IMG/VR virus record: IMGVR_UViG_3300045950_000007
Location: 1 to 20,009 of that record
Reading direction: 5' to 3' (one strand)
From: a virus
DNA length: 20,009 nucleotides
The position numbers were made by a program, and so were the translations under genes. Shown here one piece after another: positions 3,385 to 8,645 of the stretch. The first letter of the stretch is position 1; the number at the start of each line of letters is the position of its first letter. A model generated the notes under the pieces. That model ran no database searches, had not been told where the DNA came from, and saw nothing but the letters and a program-made list of their open reading frames with translations.

Positions 3385-4586
3385 GCCGCCAGCACCTCCA
3401 GCGCGCTGCCGCCCGGCACGAAACCGGGATGGCGCACGCCGTTGCGCGAGACGATCTCCGCATCGCGCGACGGGTCGCCGTACAGACGGTAGGCCAGCAC
3501 GATGGCAGGCACCGTGGCGCGCGGGGTGACTTCCACCAGCTCGGTGAGGTCTGCGGCGCGCGTGCCGATGTCCTTGACCAGCGCCACGCGCAGGTCGGTG
3601 AGCGCGACATAGACGCTATCCGGCGCGGTCTCGGCCTGCGCCTGCAGCGCATCCGCCAACTGGTCGCGCACCGCGAGCGCCTCGGTGCGGCTGGCGAAAG
3701 TAACCTGACTGGCCGCGCGCGCCGACTCCACCAGCGCGGTGCGCTGCACCAGGTTGACCACGGCCGCCTGGTTGACGCCCTGCTGCACACGCGACGGCGT
3801 GGTGGCAGGCACCGAAGGCAGCGGCGTGAATCCGGATTGCGCCGTGCCGAACCCCGACAGCGTAGCCGTAGCCTGGCGAGCGGAAGAAGGGGAAAGCAAC
3901 CCGTTGAGCGCGCCGATCTGCGTGCCGAAGCGGCTGGCCAGATCGTTCGGCGTGCCGAGCAGCGACTCGGCCGCCCCGAGCAACGCATTCAGCTCAAAGT
4001 TGAATGCAGGCAGGATGTCCATGTCCGGCAGGTAGGAAAGGATCGTCCCGCGCACTCCATTGATCGCGGCCGTCACGTTGGACAATGCCGAAGTGCCGAC
4101 GAATGACGGAAAGCCGGAAACCTTGAATCGGCTGGCGAAGTCGCCGCGCACTGCGGATAGCGCGGTATCCGCCGCGCCGGACACCATAGACGGCGTGTCC
4201 ATGCGCACGGTCGGGAAACGGTTGCTGCCTGCCTCGATAAAGGTGAGCGAGTAGCTCGCCAGTCCGCCCGCTTCGATGCTCTCGGATGGGCGGCAATCCT
4301 GCACCGCCACCTGCATGTGCCCGCGCGTCGGGTGCACCAGCTCGCCGGGACCAGCCTGCTCGCAGGCGGCCTCCAAGCGATCGCGCCAGACGATGTAGTT
4401 GTCGCCGATGACAAAGGCCTCGATGGTGAACTCGCGCGCCTTGCGACCCATGTCCTCGACATAAGGGTCATCGCGGCCCGGATAACTGTGCACCACGTTG
4501 CGCCGGCCGAGCGCGGCCGATGCCGTGCGGAAGCGGAACTCGACGCCCCGGAAGCTGCCCTTCTGCCATTGGTCACGCCAGGCCAT
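3381..4586 (-). CDS. Mu gp43-like (gpN) tail/DNA circularization protein
   Basis: This 401-residue protein belongs to the Mu gpN family (DNA circularization protein N-terminal domain), a tail component between the tape measure and the hub. The N-terminal 110 residues carry the family marks: SFRGVEFRFRTASAALGRRN, HSYPGRDDPYVEDMGR, FVIGDNYIVWRDRLEAACE and PTRGHMQVAVQD. The middle third is Ala/Ser/Leu-rich and low in complexity. The C-terminus ends in VIVLAYRLYGDP-type and SRNGVRHPGFVPGG motifs common in this family. It starts in a TGATG junction with the tape measure stop. The name reflects history; in the virion it is a baseplate or tail protein. Confidence 0.92.
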   Translation of the reverse strand: MAWRDQWQKGSFRGVEFRFRTASAALGRRNVVHSYPGRDDPYVEDMGRKAREFTIEAFVIGDNYIVWRDRLEAACEQAGPGELVHPTRGHMQVAVQDCRPSESIEAGGLASYSLTFIEAGSNRFPTVRMDTPSMVSGAADTALSAVRGDFASRFKVSGFPSFVGTSALSNVTAAINGVRGTILSYLPDMDILPAFNFELNALLGAAESLLGTPNDLASRFGTQIGALNGLLSPSSARQATATLSGFGTAQSGFTPLPSVPATTPSRVQQGVNQAAVVNLVQRTALVESARAASQVTFASRTEALAVRDQLADALQAQAETAPDSVYVALTDLRVALVKDIGTRAADLTELVEVTPRATVPAIVLAYRLYGDPSRDAEIVSRNGVRHPGFVPGGSALEVLAA

Positions 4587-6355
4587 CAGTTGGCTCCCAC
4601 CATCGTCGGGCCGGAGTGGACGTTAAACCGCACGCCCGGCTGGCTGGATTTAACGCTGGCGTTGGCTCGGCCGTCCTGGTCGATCTTGATGCGGATGTCG
4701 CCTTTCAGATTAGCTTCCGCGTTCAGCGTGTTCAGCGCCATCTCGGCATCCTTGCTGCCGAAGAACTTCATGATGCGCAGCGCGATCTTGCCGACCAGAT
4801 CGGTATGGCCGAGCGCGTATCCACCCGCCAATGATGCGGTGCCGACGCCGGCGGCCGTCCCCATTGCACCCCAGCCCATCATGCGCAGCGCCGCCATATC
4901 TGAACCGCCCAACAGCGCGGCGCCAGTCAGGAATTTACGGGCGGCCGCGCCTCCCTTGACCAGCGTATCTGTAGGTATACCGATCCCCGACATACCGTCT
5001 CCCGGCATATTGACCACGAACACCGGAGTTACCCCGGCAGCCGTCTCCAGCGCCTTGCCGGCTGCGACCCCAGCGCCGACACTGCCGAACCTGCCCGACA
5101 GCGCCTTGAGAGCCTTGCCGCCATAGCGCGCGGTAGCCAGCGTTCCCAGCGTCAGGGCCGCACCGCCGAGCAGCATGTCCTTGCCGTCGAGACCGAGGCC
5201 GCCGTTTTCTTTTTTGTTCATGAGTAACCTGATGCTGCCATCCACTGCATCGTTGATAGGCTCGGCAAACTCATCCGCTGCTTCGCGCAGTGCTGCCCTC
5301 AGGCGGCCAACCTGGTCGATGGAATTATCGATCGCCTTGGGCAAGTCGCGCGCGATCGCTCCGCTCGCCCCGGATATCTGCGTGGCGAACTGGTTTACCT
5401 TGCCCAGCATGTCGCCGGACAGCAGCACACGCAGTCCCTTGATGGTGTCCAGGTCGGCATTGCCGAACGCCTTCTGCACGAACAGGGCTCGCTCCTTTTC
5501 CGTGCCGAGCTTGTCGTATTGCTTCTTGATGTCGGCGAGCACCTCAAGCGGATCTCGGCGCTTGCCGTCCTTGTCGAAGAACTTCACGCCGGTGGCCACC
5601 TGCGCATCCTTCATGTAGCGCAGGTTGGTGAAAAGCCGCAGCGTGCTGTCTGCCAGCGTGGCCAAGCGCTCCGGCTGGCGCTCGATCTGCGACAACCCTT
5701 CGATGAAGGCCAGCGTCTTGTCGAAGCCGAAGCCCGCCGCAGCCGCATTCGGGCCGATGCGCGCGAAGATGCTGGAAAGGTTCTGCAGTTCCGCGTTGCC
5801 CAAGCGACCGGCCACGGTCATCTTGTCCAGGATATCGGTGGCCATTTTCGGCTTGGCCAGATCGAAATCGAAGGCGGTCCCGGCCACGGTCAGCGCGCTG
5901 GTCAGGCTATCCGCACTCGCGCCGGTCACCGCCATCGCCTTGTTGGTGGCATCGATCACCGGCAGCGCTTCGTTAAATCTCAGCCCGGCCTGCACGGCAT
6001 TGTTGAACCCCTGCTGCAGTTCATCGACCGACTGACCGGTGTCCCTGCCCATGCGGAACAGTTCCTTGCGCAGGTTGGCCACATCGGCCTCGGCCACACC
6101 GGCGGTCTGGCCGATCTGCGTCAGGCTCTTGTCCATGCGCGCGGATTGGGCGATGGTGGCCACCGCGCCGACCGATACGCCAATCGACGCGAGCCTGCCT
6201 TCGACCGTGTTGAGCACTCCCTTGAGCGCCTCGAACTCGCGCTTCACGTTGCCGGTGAAGCTGCGCACGCCGCGCTCGCCGGCCACCAGCCCGGAGACAA
6301 ACCGGGCCGTGTCGGCATAGAGCTTCATCGATAGCGTTAAATCACGGGTTCCCAT
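4586..6355 (-). CDS. Tail tape measure protein (Mu gp42-like)
   Basis: This 589-residue protein lies exactly between the tail assembly chaperone and the gpN gene, the place of Mu gp42. Residues about 80-310 match the phage minor tail / TP901-type tape measure core (QTAGVAEADVANLRKELFRM, SVDELQQGFNNAVQAG, ALTVAGTAFDFD). The C-terminal half has hydrophobic glycine-rich stretches (about 385-405 and 475-515), as expected for a protein that may enter the host membrane. Tape length sets tail length; at the usual rule of roughly 1.5 Angstrom per residue a tail of about 90 nm is inferred, a little shorter than Mu. The start overlaps the frameshifted chaperone reading frame by 14 bases. Confidence 0.93.
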   Translation of the reverse strand: MGTRDLTLSMKLYADTARFVSGLVAGERGVRSFTGNVKREFEALKGVLNTVEGRLASIGVSVGAVATIAQSARMDKSLTQIGQTAGVAEADVANLRKELFRMGRDTGQSVDELQQGFNNAVQAGLRFNEALPVIDATNKAMAVTGASADSLTSALTVAGTAFDFDLAKPKMATDILDKMTVAGRLGNAELQNLSSIFARIGPNAAAAGFGFDKTLAFIEGLSQIERQPERLATLADSTLRLFTNLRYMKDAQVATGVKFFDKDGKRRDPLEVLADIKKQYDKLGTEKERALFVQKAFGNADLDTIKGLRVLLSGDMLGKVNQFATQISGASGAIARDLPKAIDNSIDQVGRLRAALREAADEFAEPINDAVDGSIRLLMNKKENGGLGLDGKDMLLGGAALTLGTLATARYGGKALKALSGRFGSVGAGVAAGKALETAAGVTPVFVVNMPGDGMSGIGIPTDTLVKGGAAARKFLTGAALLGGSDMAALRMMGWGAMGTAAGVGTASLAGGYALGHTDLVGKIALRIMKFFGSKDAEMALNTLNAEANLKGDIRIKIDQDGRANASVKSSQPGVRFNVHSGPTMVGAN

Positions 6356-6805
6356 TGGTCGGTTTGGTCAACATTCCCACGTAGTGGTTAAATTCGACGG
6401 CTGGCAGCGCGAGAATCTCCTGGCGCGACCAGCCGGTTTTAAGCGCGATCAGCAAAATGCAGTCCAGCACTCCGCGCTGATGCGCTATACGGCTTCCCCC
6501 AGCGCGTCGATCTCCACCTGCTTGTTGCGCAGTGCGCGATAGTCGATCGGCTTGAGCTTCTTCAGCATGTTGGTGGTGAACGGCCCGTTGAATTCCTGCC
6601 CGTCGTCAGACGTCACCTTGACCAACTGCCGCAGCATCATCTGGGCGTTGAATATGATCGGCGTCTCGACGCCGCCACCCTGTTTGGCGGCCTCCAGCTC
6701 CGCATCCATCATGTCGCCGGTATCGGCCTCGCGCATCTCGAAGCCGGTGTAGGTGACCCCGCCGATCTGCATGCCGCGCACAAACTTTCCAGTCGCAGAT
6801 TGCAT
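6342..6805 (-). CDS. Probable -1 frameshift product of the gp41-like tail assembly chaperone
   Basis: The gp41-like frame stops at 6485, but the -1 frame stays open from the G5 run (complement of 6496-6500) to a TGA at 6342-6344. A shift would add about 50 residues, including RGVLDCILLIALKTGWSRQ and EILALPAVEFNHYVGML, and give a protein of about 154 residues. The pattern of tryptophan, then EI-x-x-LP and EF-x-x-Y, is what tail assembly chaperone extensions (lambda G-T type) look like. The gene pair sits directly upstream of the tape measure, as in other long-tailed phages. The extension has no good ribosome binding site of its own. Shift efficiency and the exact codon are inferred. Confidence 0.72.
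6485..6805 (-). CDS. Mu gp41-like tail assembly chaperone
   Basis: This 106-residue protein of the Mu-like FluMu gp41 family is a cytoplasmic chaperone for the tape measure and is absent from the finished virion. It reads MQSATGKFVRGMQIGGVTYT, then GFEMREADTGDMMDAELEA and finishes with DYRALRNKQVEIDALGEAV. The start at 6805 is preferred over a TTG 15 bases upstream because it forms a TGATG junction with the tube gene and has a clear AAGGAGG about 7 bases upstream. A G5 run near its 3' end probably lets ribosomes enter a second frame. Confidence 0.9.
   Translation of the reverse strand: MQSATGKFVRGMQIGGVTYTGFEMREADTGDMMDAELEAAKQGGGVETPIIFNAQMMLRQLVKVTSDDGQEFNGPFTTNMLKKLKPIDYRALRNKQVEIDALGEAV
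6496..6500 (-). promoter_or_regulatory. Candidate ribosomal frameshift site (GGGGG)
   Basis: The end of the gp41-like gene reads GCG CTG GGG GAA GCC GTA TAG. The five G residues let a GGG-reading tRNA re-pair perfectly one base back, after which the -1 frame is open for about 50 codons. This is not the classic XXXYYYZ heptamer, because GAA would re-pair with GGA with one mismatch. Mu itself has been reported to use a -2 shift at this gene; the -2 frame here ends after about 22 codons, so -1 is preferred. Confidence 0.55.
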
Positions 6806-7155
6806 CACGCCTCCTTGCAATCGGTGCCGAAGAAGGTCGCCTTCACGCCGTCTTTCGACAGCTCAGGCACCGGGCCGCTGAATGCATCGGTGATCACGAA
6901 GCTCTTGCCGTTGTCGGTGTCGAAGCTGATCGTGGCGTTCTTGATGCCCTGGATTTCCTTGAGGCTGATGTCGGCCGTATGGATGATGGTGCAATCCACC
7001 TGCGGCGCTTCGATCTTTTCCTGGTGGCCCGCCACGCCAGCATCGCCGACCACGGCTTCGCGGCTCACGCCGCCGAACTTCAGGCTTGCGCCTTCCTTGG
7101 TGTTGTAGCGCTTGCCGGCGACGGTGATGAACGCGCGTCCGAATACTTGTGCCAT
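6805..7155 (-). CDS. M: Tail tube protein (Mu gpM / gp40-like)
   Basis: This 116-residue major tail tube protein polymerises inside the contractile sheath and forms the channel for DNA. MAQVFGRAFITVAGKRYNTK, then GASLKFGGVSREAVVG and VDCTIIHTADISLKEIQG, match the Mu-like tube family (FluMu gp40), whose usual length is near 118. It directly follows the sheath gene with an 11-base gap carrying an AAGGGAA ribosome binding site about 8 bases before the ATG, as expected for a highly made structural protein. Its stop overlaps the gp41-like start (TGATG). Confidence 0.94.
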   Translation of the reverse strand: MAQVFGRAFITVAGKRYNTKEGASLKFGGVSREAVVGDAGVAGHQEKIEAPQVDCTIIHTADISLKEIQGIKNATISFDTDNGKSFVITDAFSGPVPELSKDGVKATFFGTDCKEA

Positions 7156-7166
7156 GTCGATTCCCT

Positions 7167-8645
7167 TTACAGAATGTATTGAACAGCTGCCGCGAACACG
7201 TCAAACTGGTTGACGAGGTTCGGCGGAAGGATGGCGTTGACCCGGTTGGTATCGGCGTCGGAGCGCACCACGACCAGGTCTTTAATGAATTGGTCGAGGT
7301 CTTCCAGCAGACCGACCTTCTCCAGCTTCATGGCCGTGCCGATGTTGACGTTGCGGATCAGCTTTGGCGTGGCGATCGCCTGTCCAGGCTGGATGCGCTC
7401 CAGAACGTCGTCGCCCGCCAGCTTGTGGCGCGGGAAGTTGGTCAGCACGTCGCTGCGGAACGCGAAGCGCATGTAGTCCGCCGTCCACTTGGTATTGAGC
7501 TTGAGCAGGCTCACGTCGTCCATGCCGAAGGTGTTGGTCTGGTAGGTCGTCACCACCTGGCTGATGCTGGCGTTGCCGGCCTGGTCGAACACGATGGTGC
7601 TGATGCCGTCGTGCAGCAGGTTGTTGCGCTCGGTATCGGTGAACCTGTCCGCCTCGGCCGGAGCCGCGACATCAGGCAGCGCCAGCGATCGGAACGGCAC
7701 CGCCGGATCGATCGCGCCGCTGAACTCGCAGGCCGCACCGAACTGCGCCGAAATCACCCAGGGCAGCGACGGCGACTTGTAGAGGCCGCAGACCGTGCTG
7801 TGCGCGCTGTTGCGCGCGCCGCCGTAGGTGGAGAGCGCCGAGAAGCTGCCGTTCTTGTGGCCGAACACGTGGCCGGCGCGCATGCTCATGCCGCCCCAGC
7901 GGATCTGCAGCTCGTTTTCCATCAGCGCCATGTTGGCGGCATCCGTCCAGCCCATCAGGATGGTGTAGGGCGAAAGCGTGCTCATGGCCGTGATGGCCGC
8001 AGACACGTCCGGGTTGCCGGTGCCGTTCGCCATCGCGGTGATCGCCAGCGTCAGCCCGGCCGGGGTGAACTCGCCCTGGTAGTAGTTGACGCGCATATCG
8101 ATGTCGTTGCCCTCGACGCCCTTGTGGCGGCTGGTAACCGTCACGGTTCCGAGGTTCGCGGTCGCGGTCACCGCGCCGTCGGCGTCGGCATTGATCGCGG
8201 CAGCCACGTTGGCGGCCACCTGCGCCGCGGTCTGGGCGGAGGTAATCGCGACGGTCAGCCTGCGCCATCCGATGTAGAGGTACAGCGTGCCGCTCTCGAT
8301 CGGCGATCCGGTGAATGCCAGACTGCCGGAAGCCGCGACGCCGGCACCGTTATCGTCCAATGCCAGCGCGTAATACTCGGTATACGGGTTGACCTTGAGC
8401 GCCGCCGCGATCTGCTGCGCCAGCATCGAGCCGCGCCCGAAGTAGTTCACGCCGTCTTCCTTGCGGCTGACGCGGGTCAGCACGCCGGCGGCGACCGTGC
8501 CGGTGGAAAGGCGCTGGCCGAGAATCAGGATGCTGTGCCGCTGCTGCGGCAGGCCGCGCACGGAGCGGGTGTGGTCGACCTCGATGAACGCGCCCGGATC
8601 GCGCCAGTCCACGGGTATCGTCATGAAAGTAATGTTGTCCGGCAT
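7167..8645 (-). CDS. L: Tail sheath protein (Mu gpL / gp39-like)
   Basis: This 492-residue contractile tail sheath protein compares with about 495 residues in Mu gpL. It starts MPDNITFMTIPVDWRDPGAF. Family marks are RSVRGLPQQRHSILILGQ, an internal beta domain (about residues 90-170), the stretch YTILMGWTDAANMALMENEL and a C-terminal domain with NVNIGTAMKLEKVGLLED and a final FDVFAAAVQYIL. A CAGGAGACC ribosome binding site lies just before the ATG. It sits between the small gp38-like gene and the tube gene, the standard order. The long open frame on the other strand over the same bases is a GC-driven shadow. Confidence 0.96.
   Translation of the reverse strand: MPDNITFMTIPVDWRDPGAFIEVDHTRSVRGLPQQRHSILILGQRLSTGTVAAGVLTRVSRKEDGVNYFGRGSMLAQQIAAALKVNPYTEYYALALDDNGAGVAASGSLAFTGSPIESGTLYLYIGWRRLTVAITSAQTAAQVAANVAAAINADADGAVTATANLGTVTVTSRHKGVEGNDIDMRVNYYQGEFTPAGLTLAITAMANGTGNPDVSAAITAMSTLSPYTILMGWTDAANMALMENELQIRWGGMSMRAGHVFGHKNGSFSALSTYGGARNSAHSTVCGLYKSPSLPWVISAQFGAACEFSGAIDPAVPFRSLALPDVAAPAEADRFTDTERNNLLHDGISTIVFDQAGNASISQVVTTYQTNTFGMDDVSLLKLNTKWTADYMRFAFRSDVLTNFPRHKLAGDDVLERIQPGQAIATPKLIRNVNIGTAMKLEKVGLLEDLDQFIKDLVVVRSDADTNRVNAILPPNLVNQFDVFAAAVQYIL

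Follow-up and report, generated by a model that had tools for sequence, protein, structure and literature searches.

A Mu-type tail module with an extended chaperone frame

The window (the whole stretch of DNA that was analysed, 20,009 bases of a virus record) carries a Mu-type tail module on its minus strand, laid out as follows:

7167-8645, minus strand: sheath gene
6805-7155, minus strand: tube gene
6485-6805, minus strand: gp41-type tail assembly chaperone, 0 frame, 106 aa (ATG 6805-6803, TAG 6487-6485; PF23746 and phrog_508)
6512-6515, minus strand: Shine-Dalgarno (SD)-like GGAG, a proposed stimulator, 12 nt before the GGG codon, where anti-SD pairing peaks in both classes of loci described below
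6496-6500, minus strand: G5 run, the proposed slip site CTG GGG GAA (GGG at 6499-6497)
6443-6485, minus strand: stem-loop, a proposed stimulator, 8 nt after GAA, first helix 6485-6480 with 6448-6443 (covariation, 13 loci)
6342-6497, minus strand: -1 frame extension (T-like domain), 51 codons plus TGA 6344-6342 (pN/pS, alignment of 37 loci, helical model)
4586-6355, minus strand: tape measure gene (ATG 6355; PF10145, E=1.1e-27; phrog_973)

The chaperone gene sits between the tail tube and tape measure genes, as frameshifted chaperone genes do, and its product belongs to the Gp41_Mu family (PF23746; E=1.9e-9, 38 bits against a curated cut-off of 27), with a further match to phrog_508 (E=5.8e-11), in agreement with the tail chaperone identity first proposed for it. 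Its start was placed at ATG 6805, which overlaps the tube stop by 1 base, in preference to an alternative TTG at 6820 (6485-6820). The 3' end reads GAC GCG CTG GGG GAA GCC GTA TAG, with CTG at 6502-6500, GGG at 6499-6497 and GAA at 6496-6494, the G5 run spanning 6500-6496. The -1 frame is open from upstream of this run; the first post-slip codon would be GGA (6497-6495), with reading continued to TGA (6344-6342), for a 51-codon extension, with 48 codons beyond the 0-frame stop (GSRIAHQRGVLDCILLIALKTGWSRQEILALPAVEFNHYVGMLTKPTNGNP) and an end that overlaps the tape-measure ATG at 6355 by 14 bases. The original prediction had placed the end of the gp41-like frame at 6485 and an open -1 frame from the GGGGG run to 6342, with a W...EI..LP..EF..Y motif in its translation and a 14-base overlap with the tape measure start, and was accurate in each of these respects.

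Neither the window extension nor the DNA of the region matched any named phage; a DNA search with a piece of L087 returned short partial matches only, and Rfam gave a single match, far under the gathering score.

Survey of Mu-type junctions

Scanning genome contigs for gp41 gave no match; the sheath was therefore used as the anchor for scans of virus and genome contigs, to which Mu and two named relatives were added. The 148 loci so numbered (L001-L148) became 145 once L001 (part of the window) had been replaced by the window itself and L002-L004, on contigs shared with L010, L011 and L013, had been removed. Eighteen of the 145 were lost (17 with no tape-measure ORF in the stretch, and L077, with no sheath match) and two more (L071, L137) had no gp41 match, leaving 125 loci with sheath, gp41 and tape measure (L037 weakly, E=0.0023), of which 91 were kept once near copies had been taken out. 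These 91 junctions comprise (i) class A, 37 loci including the window, in which a ..G_GGG_G phase leads to a -1 extension, (ii) class B, 36 loci including Mu, with.GG_GGG_CGA and a -2 extension, (iii) 15 canonical heptamers, and (iv) three unclassed loci, namely L056 (CGG GGA GAG, -2 frame open), L057 and L091 (chaperone and extension in one frame). L091 is from a prophage of Marinomonas rhodophyticola, and its near relative L099 needs a -2 shift; the in-frame state of L091 may be a natural fusion, decay or a sequencing error.

Held-out loci came from gp41 searches of 369, 399 and 394 genomes (partly overlapping sets), with matches in 6, 2 and 6. From these 14 loci, L150 (the prophage of L089 itself) was left out, L155 had no gp41 match, and L157, L158 and L159 were copies of L013, L088 and L100; nine new loci remain.

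Coding signal in the -1 extension

Within the class-A extension, pN/pS was 0.23 in the -1 frame against 1.04 and 2.37 in the other frames (34 loci, pairs 70-97% identical), the same value as for gp41 in its own frame in this set (0.23); the 34 are the gap-free loci, i.e., the 37 minus L084, L114 and L135, dropped for length. Alignment of all 37 yields the consensus LLLALKTGWSRAEILxLPxAEFNHYL. The class-A HMM matches the -1 frame in 37 of 37 loci and none of the 37 combines an intact gp41 with a broken -1 frame, which amounts to a consistency check only, since an open frame was required for membership and the HMM was built from those same loci. AlphaFold2 predicts the extension alone to be helical (mean pLDDT 84.7, pTM 0.63; helices at 2-21, 25-29 and 33-44), and Pfam gives weak matches (E up to 0.1) to DUF6760 in 23/37 class-A extensions and to Phage_TAC_7 in 4/37. 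Judged by its pattern of substitution, the -1 extension frame is coding; the window presents a coding extension in a different frame that overlaps the end of the chaperone ORF.

The slip site

The sequence (C/T)TGGGGGAAGCC is kept in four of four loci (the window, L002, L003 and L004), as is GGGGGAAGCC in four of four close relatives; the predicted G run was compared in the close relatives and persists in all four, such that a conserved slip site lies within the overlap. Across class A, GGG_GAA occurs in 36 of 37 loci (the exception, L124, has GAG), though in these genes GAA serves for 43.5% of Glu and GGG for 10.7% of Gly; as class A was defined by its G run, only the GAA count is free of selection bias.

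The window site, G_GGG_GAA, does not conform to the canonical X_XXY_YYZ heptamer, nor is it among the 15/91 junctions (mostly T_TTT_TTG) recovered by a heptamer scan. The slip site of lambda is the canonical heptamer GGGAAAG, which appears among the surveyed loci in held-out L154; the window site is non-canonical. The earlier description of the site as non-standard stands as to form and needs refining as to precedent: GGGGGAA is the only "fivetwo" motif among the joined SEA-PHAGES actinophage tail chaperones, in the portion of PMC10885494 available, and Streptomyces phage Ozzie (MF541410) reads GTG GGG GAA GCC TGA, with the same codon phase as the window and the same GCC and nearby stop. The annotated chaperone join in Ozzie is -1 by its coordinates, the shift also proposed for the window. 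The likeness described here is one of site, and the annotated stretch of Ozzie lists no sheath gene, unlike the window module.

In five loci of the TTTTTTG type (L117, L123, L127, L128 and L111), some 170-200 extra bases lie between extension and tape measure on the minus strand. Each of these inserts has an antisense ORF of about 55-65 aa with the look of a two-helix membrane protein (in L117, MNGLKSFFVWAVLLVVLYATWQVIAADGW...), and is perhaps an extra gene.

Codon phase and the size of the shift

Mu (NC_000929) resembles the window in its homologous chaperone family, gene order, G5 run, and extension just before the tape measure; however, in Mu the site is CGG GGG CGA and the open frame is -2, whereas in the window they are CTG GGG GAA and -1. 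The window does not have Mu-type -2 geometry: its site reads TG_GGG_GAA and not GG_GGG_CGA, and its -2 frame closes at 6441-6439, 16 codons beyond the 0-frame stop. Both this early closure and the contrast with Mu had been predicted, and both hold. A -2 frameshift has been reported for Mu (in the available parts of PMC5009743 and PMC2628397), and the former review, in the part consulted, names as -2 users phage Mu, arteriviruses and one Trichomonas virus. Elsewhere the Mu shift is called exceptional, and Pseudomonas Mu-like phages with flexible tails are given T_TTT_TTC (PMC4378225, excerpt); KS10, a transposable phage, is reported to have no frameshift signal in the text available of PMC2628397. 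A gp41 protein search of named phages gave three records, of which two belong to one phage, and the -2 geometry is seen in all three; Mu, Shewanella phage MuM16-2 and Vibrio phage martha all have (C/A)GG GGG CGA and an open -2 frame.

The class-B extension behaves as its -2 frame would predict, with pN/pS of 0.28 there against 0.92 and 2.85 (same-length pairs, 65-97% identical). CGA follows GGG in 35/36 class-B loci, though it accounts for 6.9% of Arg codons.

To relate phase to frame, runs of exactly five Gs were counted in the last 90 nt of gp41 across the 91 loci. Where G5 begins at codon position 2, the -2 frame is open in 36/37 cases, the -1 frame alone in none, and both in 6; where it begins at position 3, the -1 frame is open in 40/43, with both frames open in 22 of those. 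The three position-3 exceptions are all class-B loci (-2 alone in L040 and L060, neither in L035), and the two runs beginning at position 1 (L084, L114) are in loci that also have a class-A site. Cases with a single open frame number 30 for -2 only at position 2 and 18 for -1 only at position 3. In the held-out set, the -2 frame of all six new position-2 G5 loci stays open from the run to beyond the stop; in one of these loci, L156, the run precedes the stop by 74 nt and the -2 frame closes 64 nt beyond it. No new position-3 G5 locus appeared there, so that only the -2 half of the rule was probed. Held-out L153 (GGGAAAC) and L154 have a -1 KTGW-type extension, and L163 counts against a strict phase rule, since its -2 frame is open although it has only the four Gs of GAG GGG CGA. 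Across Mu-type tail modules the same G5 signal occurs in two phases, of which the window site is one, and it is no oddity of a single phage.

Flanking signals

In class A, anti-SD pairing peaks at one offset, with -6.4 kcal/mol there and -1.0 (SD 2.6) as the background for the genes, and class B has an SD-like peak of -7.4 at nearly the same offset, Mu itself having no GGAG there. Downstream, the class-A interval from +8 to +68 folds better than its shuffles (mean z -2.34; 28/37 below -1) compared with four control windows (0.04 to -0.27); for the shorter interval from +8 to +48 the mean z is only -0.82, with 12/37 below -1. Class-B downstream folding is weaker (mean z -1.09, 15/36 below -1; controls -0.07 to -0.36).

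For the clade of the window (13 class-A loci), the stem-loop has 82.1% of cells paired and 22 cells changed on both sides. Its covariation score of 0.379 was matched by 0/500 shuffles and by no slid version, while the number of pairs changed on both sides was reached in 44/500 shuffles and the number of further pair types in 124/500. RNAalifold returned only a weaker form of the stem-loop for this clade; over all 34 alignable class-A loci it found no strong common stem (-5.6 kcal/mol), nor did either of the other two class-A clades give a clear one, and we thus claim the stem-loop for the window's clade alone. The likely stimulators of the slip are the GGAG, which would pair with 16S rRNA, and the stem-loop downstream.

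Proposed mechanism and alternatives

From this comparison of loci, we consider it highly probable that the window encodes a programmed -1 ribosomal frameshift of the lambda G/GT kind within a Mu-type tail module. Most ribosomes would complete gp41 (106 aa) and a minority would slip: the peptidyl-tRNA-Gly on GGG 6499-6497 would move back one base, onto the first GGG of the G5 run, after which GGA would be the next codon and translation through the 51 codons would give a gp41-T fusion ending just inside the tape-measure gene. In lambda, a minor -1 fusion is likewise encoded before the tape measure gene, and its added domain is thought to bind the tail tube protein (PMC5009743, in part); by analogy, we infer a role in tail assembly for the window fusion. 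We also infer that the slip is ribosomal and that the P-site tRNA is the mover, together with any efficiency; for two HK97-like chaperone genes, 6-7% frameshifting has been reported (PMC3711429, excerpt). A reporter study in E. coli counts against easy slippage on a G run without stimulators: in section 16 of PMC4066793, G_GG.G scored above background but this was ascribed to SD-driven initiation and not slippage, and G_GG.G_GG.U without a stimulator gave the lowest value among all heptamers.

The same product would arise if the tRNA-Gly on GGG and the tRNA-Glu on GAA both moved back by one, with GAA re-pairing to GGA via a middle G.U pair. The preference for GAA over GAG in 36/37 class-A loci, though GAA is 43.5% of Glu codons, argues for such a tandem movement, as does the standing of GGGGGAA as the sole "fivetwo" form (in the same portion of PMC10885494); however, the middle-position pair would be poor. 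In class B, moreover, the tRNA on CGA cannot re-pair with GGC, so the slide there would be by the P-site tRNA alone, and a common mechanism would favour the P site in both classes; we regard tandem slippage as possible but short of probable. A slide by two to the 5' end of the five Gs in class B would correspond to the slide by one in class A. The slide by one that pairing also allows in class B would reach a stop after a further 2 to 42 residues (≤9 in 23/36 loci). A -2 and a +1 shift in class B are indistinguishable from sequence; -2 is the shift reported for Mu, and L152 retains GG ahead of GGG with a TGG (Trp) codon in place of one for Arg.

Alternatively, the -1 frame might be a separate small protein made by translational coupling, started after the gp41 stop (e.g., at GTG 6470-6468, which the window does possess) or with the G run acting as a Shine-Dalgarno sequence, G-rich tetramers having driven SD-type initiation in the reporter study (PMC4066793, same section). 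An ATG, GTG or TTG is found in the -1 frame in 30/37 class-A loci, at varying places from 30 before to 66 after the slip, and 33/36 class-B loci have a start-like codon in their own extension frame. However, in seven of the 37 class-A loci, L011 (the L003 contig) included, none of these three codons occurs over that interval. In the 34 aligned loci two start-like codons in total are found in the 19 columns around the slip (10 before it to 8 after it), and no column is conserved as a start, the best (13/34) lying inside the domain. Re-initiation in class A is unlikely, since no start codon is conserved and seven loci lack one over the interval; coupling would also leave the fixed codon phase unexplained, and we consider it improbable for the window, its GTG notwithstanding. 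Gain or loss of a G by RNA polymerase within the homopolymer run is more improbable still: an added or lost base would shift the frame at any phase, whereas here the frame tracks the phase, and five Gs make a short run for transcriptional slippage. We therefore retain the ribosomal -1 slip as very likely a real programmed frameshift, one that would serve an ordinary purpose and use a site already known in actinophages.

Apparent exchange of chaperone cassettes between tail modules

The extension domain, as compared by profile, is common to both shift sizes in at least one case, L028, whose extension in the -2 frame is matched by the class-A HMM (E=5.9e-12). The same HMM matches L086 (A_AAA_AAC) and L069 in the -1 frame, and other -2 loci faintly (L032, 0.015; L145, 0.032; L040, 0.093), no further one falling below 0.5. 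Comparison of extension profiles by hhalign gave probabilities of 72.7% for A-B, 97.3% for A-H and 50.9% for B-H; the A-B link is weak by itself and rests on L028. By eye, the extensions of two -2 loci, L151 and L152, resemble the -1 KTGW-type domain.

On a sheath tree (built by a quick method, with several long branches), the distribution of -1 and -2 needs at least four changes, and the pairs L015/L111, L083/L116 and L127/L145 have close sheaths with differing cassettes and shift types. The chaperone cassette thus seems to move separately from the sheath, probably through exchange by recombination.

These observations would fit a single mechanism in which GGAG, 12 nt and GGG form a common signal, the tRNA-Gly slides back to where the G5 run begins, and codon phase sets the size of the shift, with one preceding G giving -1 and two giving -2. 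The downstream frame would have moved with the phase, and the Mu -2 shift would be one setting of a shared device passing between phage backbones as a cassette. We hold the case for this unified account to be evenly balanced.

Significance

The kind of event described here is already known; what appears new is that the Mu gp41 family has a -1 form of it, together with the apparent rule by which phase determines shift size. A search of the open-access literature by title found nothing on a -1 G5 site in Mu-type gp41. The extension also shows how gene callers can overlook a conserved domain that lacks a conserved start codon. If the phase rule is true, related chaperones would use one G5 run in two phases with matching downstream frames, and what determines how far a ribosome slips could be tested by moving one base.
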